IMG/VR virus record: IMGVR_UViG_3300033233_000150
Span: 1 to 25,885 of that record
From: a virus
DNA: 25,885 nucleotides
Direction: 5' to 3' (one strand)
Each line of letters starts with the position of its first letter. Within the stretch, counting starts at the first letter, position 1. The translations under genes and the position numbers were made by a program. The notes beneath the pieces are model-generated. The model saw only the letters and a program-made list of their open reading frames with translations. It had not been told where the DNA came from and searched no databases. Positions 4,055 through 25,498 of this stretch are shown here, piece by piece.

Positions 4055-5577
4055 GCACCTACAAATTGAACATGCGGCGGGGCACGGAGCAGGACTACAG
4101 AGCCTCGGATAACATCTGGAACACCTCGGGGCTGACGGCTGATTCGATGCGCCCTAGGCGAACGGTGACGGCTGTGGATGGATCCACAAAGCTGGCAATC
4201 ACGCCAAACGATTTTCAAAAGACGCTGAGTCTTTCGCGGCAATTGTTCGCACGGGTTACGGAAGTTTCTGGGGCACTCCTTCAGAAAAACAACTACGTGA
4301 TCGGCGACAGTTGGGAGCCTCGATTTGACGGCGCGGATCAGGAGTGGGGGCGTGAGGCTGAGGATTACCTAGAGCGTTGGTTTAAAGTTTGCAACCTGCG
4401 GGGCGAGCCGTTCGATTGGACGACGTCGCTTTATGTAGACTCGCTCTCGATTGACAGGGACGGCGACGCTGCGATGATTCTGGCGGTGGTGGATGGTGAG
4501 CCTCGGTTGCAGTTTGTGGCGGCTCATCAAATCGGCTCGCGGTCAATTGCAGTTTCAAACAAGGACGGCACCAGCACGGTCAACGGCGGGCGGTTCAATG
4601 GTGCAAAAATTTACAACGGCGCAATTTTCGGGAAGCATCAAAACGTCATTGGCTACAATATTCTCGGCGAGACTTCAAAAGAAGACCAGCAAGTTGGCGT
4701 TGAAAGTTGTCAGCTGCTTTACGAACCCGAGTGGTCGGATCAAGGGAGAGGCATCCCACGGCTTGCATCTTCGATATTGAACTGGATGGATTACGAAGAT
4801 ATCCACCACTTTCTAAAGAAGCAGGTCAAACTAGATTCATCACAAGGAATCCTTCACTACAACGAAAGCGGCGAGGCTGCTACCGAATCCGACTTTATCC
4901 TTGGGCGTGATTCTGCTTCGGTAAATCAGGACGTGAAAGTTGAACAGCTGCAAGGCTCTGAGATCATGTATTTCAAAGCTTCCGGCGGGGGCAAGATTGA
5001 GCCTTTCCGCTCGGATCGTCCATCGCCAAACGTGGACGCTTTCACGATGCGCCTTGTTCGCGGTTGCCTTCAGTCGATGGGTTGGTTTTTTGAAATTTAC
5101 GATCCTTCAAAGGTCGGCGGATCCTCGACCCGCCTCATCCAAGACATGGCCAGAAGCTCAATTCGATCGAAGCAGAGGCTCGTGCAGCGTAGGGCCATGC
5201 GTGCCGTGGCCCACGCTCTTGGCGTGGCTATGGAAAGCGGGGCACTCCGTCAAAACGACAACGTGGACTGGCTGCGCTGGAGCTTTACGCTCCCCTCTCG
5301 GATCACTGTTGATGCTCATTACGACGACGAGACTTCCATGAACCGGATCAAGCTAGGGGCTGGGACTTACGCTGAGTTCTTCGGGGAGAAGGGCAAATGG
5401 TGGGAGGATGAGGTTAGGCAACGGATCAAAGAGCAGGCTTTCTTCATTGCTGAATGTGCTCGGCAAGGGGTTGACGTGGATCAAGTGCAGCTACTAACGC
5501 CTAACGGAATGCCTAAAGACATCGTTGAACCTGCGGCGCCCGTAGCGGATCCAGCTTTGAGCACAAACGGATTATGA
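4051..5577 (+). CDS. Portal protein (lambda B family)
   Basis: This 508-residue protein forms the dodecameric ring at the capsid vertex through which DNA passes. Features of the lambda-type portal include an N-terminal stretch with AGDSWEP-like wing residues, a DGDAAMIL strand (about 132-140), the helix-rich middle KKQVKLDSS, and a C-terminal segment with FTMRLVRGCLQSMGWFFEIYDPS followed by STRLIQDMARSSIRSKQ, which resembles the conserved clip and stem region. It overlaps the gpW-like gene and the protease gene by ATGA at both ends, as expected for a coupled head operon. Confidence 0.93.
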   Translation: MSTYKLNMRRGTEQDYRASDNIWNTSGLTADSMRPRRTVTAVDGSTKLAITPNDFQKTLSLSRQLFARVTEVSGALLQKNNYVIGDSWEPRFDGADQEWGREAEDYLERWFKVCNLRGEPFDWTTSLYVDSLSIDRDGDAAMILAVVDGEPRLQFVAAHQIGSRSIAVSNKDGTSTVNGGRFNGAKIYNGAIFGKHQNVIGYNILGETSKEDQQVGVESCQLLYEPEWSDQGRGIPRLASSILNWMDYEDIHHFLKKQVKLDSSQGILHYNESGEAATESDFILGRDSASVNQDVKVEQLQGSEIMYFKASGGGKIEPFRSDRPSPNVDAFTMRLVRGCLQSMGWFFEIYDPSKVGGSSTRLIQDMARSSIRSKQRLVQRRAMRAVAHALGVAMESGALRQNDNVDWLRWSFTLPSRITVDAHYDDETSMNRIKLGAGTYAEFFGEKGKWWEDEVRQRIKEQAFFIAECARQGVDVDQVQLLTPNGMPKDIVEPAAPVADPALSTNGL

Positions 5578-19748: not shown

Positions 19749-19784
19749 AAATAAAAACCCCGCTCCAGACTCCCAGAGCGGGGG
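19749..19784 (-). terminator. Intrinsic terminator of the leftward operon
   Basis: Read on the - strand, GAGCGGGG-type arms (19758-19765 with 19776-19783, 10-base loop) are followed by TTTTTATTTCTTT. It lies 55 bases beyond the last leftward gene, back to back with the rightward terminator. Confidence 0.88.
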
Positions 19785-22866: not shown

Positions 22867-23694
22867 CTAAACGGGAGATTCTTCGGCCAACTTCAACCCG
22901 AAGCGTGTCAATGTTTCTTTGATTTCGTTCATCACTTTTTTGTTTTTTGGAATAGTTTTTAACAACTCATGTTCAGTTTTTGACGCCAACTCTCCGAGAG
23001 TTTTTATCCCTGCGTTATTTAAATTGTTTCGGGTTCGGGTAGTTAGCTTGAGATCGGAGATCCGAATCAATGCAGACCCCGATAAGAACGCGTACCCCTC
23101 GAAAGCATGTGGGCCAACAGATGTAACACTGCTGGGGATCGTAATGGTTGCCAAGCAATGCCTGAAAGCATTGCTACCAACACAAGTGACGCTGTTGGGT
23201 ATAACGACACGAGTCAACCCTGAGCAGCCAGCGAACGCCCAGTGATCAATCTTTTTGACCGGCAAACCGCCAATCGTGGCTGGAATAATCAATTCACCCG
23301 TGGCTTTGGTGTCGCAAGTCTTTATCACGATACCACCAGCCTCCTGAGAATAGGTCAGAACATTTAAAACGTATGCAGCTTGATCCTCGATCGCTTCGCT
23401 CAAAAGTTTTGGCTCAAGCCAGTTTATTCGGTTTATCCCAAAACTTATGCGGAAGTTTTGCTCTGCTTTTTCAGCGGAAGGCTCGTCAATTGTCCAAGCT
23501 TTGGACAGATCACTGGTGCTCTGCCAGTCATCCTCCTCAAAATCATACCGAGCATACGGGTGAGTGCAGTCTGGGATGATGATGATGTAAGTGTTCATGC
23601 TGTTTTGGAGCTTTGCGTCAGCGGTGTCCATTTCGACAATCATTTCGTTGAGCGTAGCCTCTAAATAATCTCGGTTGCTGATTTCGTTTTTCAT
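22867..23694 (-). CDS. BspA-type leucine-rich repeat protein with RNA polymerase alpha-CTD-like domain
   Basis: This 275-residue protein has three parts. Residues 1-110 are unassigned, with a hydrophobic TYIIIIP strand near 35. Residues about 124-205 are LRR_5/BspA-like repeats: ELIIPATIGGLPVKKID, then HWAFAGCSGLTRVVIPNSVT, and ATITIPSSVTSVGPHAF. Residues about 212-270 match the bacterial RNA polymerase alpha C-terminal domain closely: ISDLKLTTRTRNNL, IKTLGELASKTEHELLK and KKVMNEIKETLTRFGL. Aligned with E. coli alpha, DNA-contact residues R265, N268, K298 and E302 are kept as R220, N223, K253 and E257, while G296 and S299 become Asn and Val. There is no polymerase assembly domain. Promoter UP-element binding and redirection of host transcription are plausible. 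ATG 23694 opens with MKNE, like its neighbour. Confidence 0.88.
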   Translation of the reverse strand: MKNEISNRDYLEATLNEMIVEMDTADAKLQNSMNTYIIIIPDCTHPYARYDFEEDDWQSTSDLSKAWTIDEPSAEKAEQNFRISFGINRINWLEPKLLSEAIEDQAAYVLNVLTYSQEAGGIVIKTCDTKATGELIIPATIGGLPVKKIDHWAFAGCSGLTRVVIPNSVTCVGSNAFRHCLATITIPSSVTSVGPHAFEGYAFLSGSALIRISDLKLTTRTRNNLNNAGIKTLGELASKTEHELLKTIPKNKKVMNEIKETLTRFGLKLAEESPV

Positions 23695-25056: not shown

Positions 25057-25076
25057 AAATACTTTGAGATTTATTG

Positions 25077-25105
25077 TTGACAGATTTTTTTGCTCCCTGT
25101 ACAAT
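25077..25105 (+). promoter_or_regulatory. Strong sigma-70-type promoter
   Basis: TTGACA (25077-25082) is a perfect -35 box, separated by exactly 17 bases from TACAAT (25100-25105), a one-mismatch -10 box. It lies 20 bases after the SSB stop and would start a transcript near 25112 that crosses almost 390 bases of non-coding DNA before the next start codon. Confidence 0.82.
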
Positions 25106-25177
25106 TCCAACCGAAGGGCGGAGCTACCCGACCCAGTCCCTTCCCTTCCGAGTCCCTTTCCCCAGTTCCCTTTCCCC

Positions 25178-25200
25178 ACGATTTTGATAAAGAAAATCGT
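25178..25200. repeat. Palindrome 1
   Basis: Arms ACGATTTT and AAAATCGT pair perfectly across the loop GATAAAG. It is flanked by CCCC on both sides, in the pyrimidine-rich half. Confidence 0.85.
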
Positions 25201-25273
25201 CCCCTCCGGCCCCTTCCGGCTTCATCCCCTCCGGCGGGTATCGGGGCCGTGACTGAAATCCTGATCAAGGATC

Positions 25274-25293
25274 ATGATTTTTTAAAAAATCAT
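25274..25293. repeat. Palindrome 2
   Basis: Arms ATGATTTTTT and AAAAAATCAT form a perfect 20-base palindrome at the pyrimidine-to-purine switch, next to the near-palindrome ATCCTGATCAAGGAT. Confidence 0.85.
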
Positions 25294-25326
25294 CTGAAAA
25301 TCGGAAAAACAAAAGCGGGAAAGGGG

Positions 25327-25348
25327 ACAATTTTCTTAGAAAAATTGT
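25327..25348. repeat. Palindrome 3
   Basis: Arms ACAATTTTC and GAAAAATTGT pair with one bulged A across TTA. It is flanked by GGGG on the left and GGGACAT on the right, matching the flanks of palindrome 4. Confidence 0.8.
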
Positions 25349-25392
25349 GGGACATGGAAGGAAAACGGGGCAGGGAAAGAAAGGGACGGGGA

Positions 25393-25412
25393 GCGATTTT
25401 TTAAAAAATCGC
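25393..25412. repeat. Palindrome 4
   Basis: Arms GCGATTTTTT and AAAAAATCGC form a perfect 20-base palindrome with GGGGA on the left and GGGACAA on the right. Relative to palindromes 2 and 3, both arms change together. Confidence 0.85.
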
Positions 25413-25498
25413 GGGACAAGAAGTGGAGCGGGAACGGGGCGACTTTTAGAGTGGAAAATGCGACAGGGAAAAACAGGGGTGGGAACTAAAACAGAACC

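Follow-up and report, generated by a model that had tools for sequence, protein, structure and literature searches.

A conserved gap ahead of the structural operon

Within the window, by which we mean the whole virus record of 25,885 b analysed here, positions 25057-25498 hold no convincing gene, as the earlier note had claimed; no other gap between plausible genes is as long as these 442 b, and the second longest measures 226 b. Downstream, all genes from 25499 round the circle to about 19.67 kb (19670) lie on the + strand, in a ~20-kb operon that runs through the terminase, portal, capsid and tail genes. The features of the gap and its first downstream gene are listed below; comparisons are with L004, the relative described thereafter.

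25077..25105, + strand: predicted promoter, sigma-70 type; TTGACA, 17-nt spacer, TACAAT; 11/12 consensus bases
25106..25160, + strand: conserved 5' block of the putative leader; 53/55 bases as in L004 (96%)
25116-25134, + strand: small predicted 5' stem GGGCGG/CCG-CCC; -9.5 kcal/mol, z -2.4
25125..25245, + strand: C/T-rich half, candidate Rho-loading segment; purine 0.31, 52 C and 21 G
25178..25200, + strand: palindrome P1, ACGATTTT / AAAATCGT, loop 7; z -3.5 as RNA
25208..25248, + strand: G+C hairpin GGCCCC ... GGGGCC; weak, z -0.3 against shuffles in the window
25227..25320, + strand: second conserved block; 89/94 bases as in L004 (95%)
25274..25293, + strand: palindrome P2; the L004 change falls in the loop
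25294..25498, + strand: G/A-rich half of the putative leader; purine 0.74, L004 alike
25321..25385, + strand: 65-b module with palindrome P3 (25327-25348); missing from L004 in the pairwise alignment
25393..25412, + strand: palindrome P4, GCGATTTT / AAAATCGC; 7/8 arm pairs kept in L004
25499..25840, + strand: first operon gene (ORF25499), 113 aa; protein 85% identical in L004

When IMG/VR, GTDB and a phage collection were scanned for relatives, L004 alone was close (IMGVR_UViG_3300027754_000456, L004/L007; 23,254 b). Its DNA is about 82-90% identical to the window (~86%) across most of its length, and the terminase proteins are 99% identical. The first 16 b of the window are identical to its last 16 b and the L004 sequence is continuous across the window ends, which together indicate that the molecule is circular or circularly permuted.

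Pfam searches of the window proteins detected a GpA-type terminase, an S49 protease, RusA, a PD-(D/E)XK nuclease, an IstB-like ATPase, a methylase and SSB; the portal was assigned via PHROGs, and RecT combines a sub-threshold Pfam match with strong PHROGs support. The methylase, terminase, portal and protease genes follow a similar order in Verrucomicrobia phage P8625, whose terminase is just 24% identical to that of the window. Directly 5' of the methylase and terminase, a 167-aa ORF (841-1344, +) is similar, by eye and in position, to a small terminase subunit, and had no match in Pfam and PHROG searches. On the minus strand, 22867-23694 encodes a protein that combines a BspA-type leucine-rich repeat with an RNA polymerase alpha C-terminal-like domain; at 65% identity to its L004 counterpart, this protein is unusually variable for this pair of phages. 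The product of ORF25499 likewise had no match in Pfam and PHROG searches, and its predicted structure (pLDDT 57) was too low in confidence for use. In L004 the ORF25499 homolog and the gene after it are separated by a 299-aa HTH_17 gene (4635-5534), which the window lacks.

The pyrimidine-to-purine switch

The switch from pyrimidines to purines along the + strand, described previously from inspection, proved to be the strongest in the genome, both by 100-nt purine windows and by step. The lowest such window in the genome (0.26) starts at 25133, the highest (0.79) starts at 25297, and the largest purine step falls at 25267. In L004 the lowest window, the highest window and the largest step all lie at the homologous place, although its right half is without the 65-b P3 module; the architecture is therefore conserved. 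In both phages the 78-nt + strand window with the highest C-minus-G value lies in the C-rich half. G+C content is 33% in 25246-25293 and 47% in the purine half.

G-quadruplexes were considered as a conserved feature and set aside: three of the four canonical motif sites of the window lie in the gap, yet in L004 the right-hand + strand motif is absent and only one left-hand minus-strand motif is left. The fourth G-quadruplex-like site of the genome is the run CCCACCCCTCCCCCCCC at the end of ORF25499 (25821-25837); L004 also has a C-run followed by TAAGGAATCT ahead of the junction at the ORF25499 end.

Conservation begins at a predicted strong promoter

The earlier note made no mention of the promoter at 25077-25105, which is directed into the palindrome array and is the sole 11/12 sigma-70 match in the genome on either strand. 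Transcription would start near 25112. The hexamers of L004 (TCGACA-18-TACAAT) match the consensus at 10/12 bases, and the intervening DNA has diverged, aligning at 45%, partly because the L004 spacer is 1 base longer. High conservation begins at the -10 box. Beyond the first block, it recurs at 25227-25320, which covers the switch point, the ATCCTGATCAAGGAT hairpin (25258-25272) and P2, and at 25385-25439 (93% identity to L004). As a neutral yardstick, third codon positions differ at 58/157 sites in SSB (63% identity) and at 26 of about 94 in ORF25499. Against these, the conservation of 25106-25160 has P values of 5e-9 (SSB) and 4e-6 (ORF25499), and that of 25227-25320 has P values of 6e-13 and 3e-8, respectively. 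Two of the five sub-blocks (the P1 flank and 25440-25498) are near neutral.

Differences from L004 are spread over the three phases (9/5/6) with no codon periodicity, and the sequence thus looks non-coding. A small protein starting at GTG 25249 (ATG in L004) was rejected on the same ground and because its frame is lost past P2; a search for its ribosome-binding site gave no convincing match.

A transcribed leader predicts that conservation should start sharply at the promoter, although an onset seen in two sequences is an indication, not proof. The promoter directed into the array, the conservation from the -10 box and the lack of codon periodicity all point to an untranslated leader. Our analysis suggests that the region is probably a transcribed and conserved leader, as predicted from its sequence: it has a promoter upstream, in the right direction, and its non-coding sequence is conserved. 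Among related phages, the promoter and the architecture of the array recur in L004, minus the P3 module; a search for the leader in P8625 and L008 gave no match.

Palindromes as hairpins or as DNA sites

The gap had been described as an array of four palindromes (25178, 25274, 25327 and 25393), and this count stands out: with one mismatch allowed, the gap has four, whereas 200 dinucleotide shuffles gave 0.67 on average and never more than 3. Two of the three perfect palindromes in the genome with arms of at least 9 fall in the gap. The ATCCTGATCAAGGAT element is present as described and is the same in L004, whereas a degenerate fifth palindrome at 25440-25462 neither folds as a palindrome nor is kept in L004. 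By manual count on the alignment, 21 of the 24 stem pairs of P1, P2 and P4 are unchanged between the phages, one pair in P1 is altered on both sides with pairing preserved (CAATTTTC / GAAAATTG in L004), and two terminal pairs are lost; 4/15 loop bases are changed. The altered P1 pair is the one compensatory change found in a covariation check of only two sequences, and may be taken as weak evidence for base pairing. The arms of the G+C hairpin at 25208-25248 are identical in L004 despite a 10-b loop loss. Stability is low for the A/U stems (-3 to -7 kcal/mol), and a search of Rfam matched no family.

Arms kept in this way would fit an RNA hairpin, a DNA hairpin or a dimer binding site, and the palindromes could equally be DNA sites. 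P1-P4 would then be bound as double-stranded DNA by a dimeric phage or host protein (an operator, nucleoid or initiator function), as the 16-b core GATTTTTTAAAAAATC common to P2 and P4 and the retention of the arms in L004 might suggest. However, the arms vary among copies, the P1 arm sequence has changed between phages, the palindromes lie 70-310 b downstream of the promoter, and conservation reaches far past them; moreover, Pfam and PHROG searches found no initiator or repressor gene adjoining. We therefore regard such an array of protein-binding sites as unlikely.

No support for a selected long hairpin between the two halves

The whole region folds with z -2.1 as + strand RNA and z -3.1 as DNA; the corresponding L004 RNA has z -1.1. 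The partly complementary halves had been proposed to form a long hairpin or triplex. Without the palindromes, the duplex z is -0.30, reflecting base composition only, and when the palindromes were kept and the spacers shuffled, the RNA fold z was -0.45 and the signal was gone. These controls attribute the folding signal to local palindromes and composition, rather than to a selected long hairpin. A long left-right hairpin or triplex was accordingly dropped as a selected structure, its energies equalling those of spacer-shuffled sequence and L004 being without 65 b of the right half. Spacer-only shuffles thus show how a composition switch can mimic a long hairpin.

Replication, mobile repeats and packaging

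An origin marked by a skew switch at this site would call for a turning point in skew, and near-neutral four-fold sites show none. Once detrended, both GC skew and purine skew bottom out at 25232 and peak near 13.0 kb. An origin placed by this raw minimum was nevertheless rejected, since the minimum is unseen at four-fold sites and shifts to 702 once the leader is removed. Four-fold-site GC skew of the + strand measures +0.213 in the + strand genes of one arm, +0.215 in those of the other and +0.195 where genes lie on the minus strand; because it is the same everywhere, the raw minimum can be put down to amino-acid composition and to the leader. The control illustrates how a composition switch can mimic an origin. 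A four-fold skew of one sign round the whole circle, in genes of both directions, is compatible with unidirectional replication, and for the same reason skew offers no origin evidence at 25057-25498.

This leaves an origin primed by transcription, in which the G/A-rich part of the RNA would stay on the template as an R-loop and prime unidirectional synthesis, as at T4 oriF. The T4 origins oriF and oriG comprise a promoter and a downstream unwinding element (PMC3016281), and the gap may resemble them in placing an R-loop-prone segment after its promoter; it differs in being purine/G-rich rather than mainly A+T-rich and in its long conserved leader. A role of this kind would fit the strong promoter with, downstream of it, a non-template strand rich in purines and clustered G and a stretch rich in A/T; it would also fit the one-signed four-fold skew. 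On the other hand, near-neutral skew is unchanged at the site, the best-conserved parts include the 5' C/T-rich block besides the purine half, 65 b of the purine half are lost in L004, and such origins have no need of palindromes. We consider an R-loop origin improbable.

Less probable still is a mobile or host-derived palindromic repeat of the REP/REPIN kind inserted in the phage. The gap shares with these elements its clustered extragenic palindromes of about 20 b (PMC3116915, PMC3733652), the 65-b palindrome unit has been gained or lost as a module between the window and L004, and the P1 unit resembles an inverted P3 unit. The arms here are A/T-rich, however, with one cluster per phage, and no high-copy family was found: the pattern GGGACNATTTTN{2,9}AAAATNGNGGGAC had 0 matches in 84,980 species genomes (GTDB representatives, a limited test for a host family), and the unit pattern occurs neither elsewhere in the window phage nor in the phage collection. 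A looser pattern matched 22 viral contigs, which looked unrelated where inspected.

A packaging initiation site (cos/pac) for the terminase is very improbable: the DNA is non-coding, repeated and structured, the terminase is of the GpA type and the contig is circular or circularly permuted, but other genes separate the gap from the terminase genes, 1.2-2.5 kb downstream, the arrangement is that of a promoter plus leader, and no result supported packaging here. Of the three roles offered in the earlier note, the structured RNA has thus gained support, from the promoter feeding the region, the conservation from the -10 box and the largely kept hairpin arms; the origin and the packaging site have not.

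A candidate switch for the structural genes

Overall, control of transcription is a likelier role for 25057-25498 than the initiation of replication or of packaging. We judge the chances about even that it comprises a promoter and a cis-acting, untranslated leader of ~390 nt controlling transcription of the structural operon by attenuation or antitermination, a reading drawn from sequence comparison. The structural genes would be transcribed from the best promoter match of the genome across a long leader, in whose first half the excess of C over G is greatest, and this suggests control after initiation. We infer the transcription of the leader, the action of its hairpins as RNA and the role in termination control, the last being a tentative proposal.

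In this proposed leader mechanism, RNA polymerase would start near 25112 and transcribe the C/U-rich half first, with its small 5' stem and P1, then the purine-rich half with hairpins P2-P4, and the nascent leader RNA would decide whether polymerase passes into the ~20-kb operon. The C-rich, G-poor half would act as a site recruiting termination, probably by Rho, and this block would be lifted by the conserved 5' element, the hairpins, a phage factor or a combination of these, such that the structural genes come on late despite the strong promoter. The spaced YC pattern of Rho sites (the 6-YC rule) is present in L004 and missing from the leader in the window, so the involvement of Rho is put forward as a proposal. 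No antiterminator gene was recognised in the window phage. It is conceivable, if doubtful, that the region represents a new class of phage leader RNA, in which the pyrimidine half recruits termination and the 5' element, hairpins and purine half lift it with no recognised antiterminator protein, so as to delay a structural operon whose promoter is near-consensus.

To our knowledge, little is known of gene timing in phages of this group. A conserved leader starting exactly at a strong promoter before the structural genes offers a concrete candidate for a late-gene switch.

Among known systems, the put RNA of phage HK022 suppresses intrinsic and Rho-dependent termination over long distances by means of about 70 nt that form two long stem-loops (PMC9378689). 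The likeness lies in a cis element that closely follows a phage promoter and precedes an operon (PMC9378689). In contrast, the window has a bipartite pyrimidine/purine leader of ~390 nt with a predicted function, and in place of two long stem-loops within about 70 nt it has one short 5' stem (25116-25134) before the C/U-rich tract. Rho-dependent attenuators of bacterial 5' leaders similarly comprise a C-rich, G-poor untranslated leader that precedes an operon and can be masked by other sequences, and a C-rich, G-poor segment is predicted in the nascent RNA of both phages. The window leader differs in belonging to a phage structural operon, in its YC spacing, and in having no known ligand or riboswitch fold. 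We class it as a phage 5' leader element; our confidence is moderate that it is a leader and low as regards the precise mechanism. Elsewhere in the window, where the two gene blocks converge, the gap that separates them holds a strong hairpin resembling an intrinsic terminator (19758-19783, minus strand; 11 pairs, 8 of them G-C, with a T tail).
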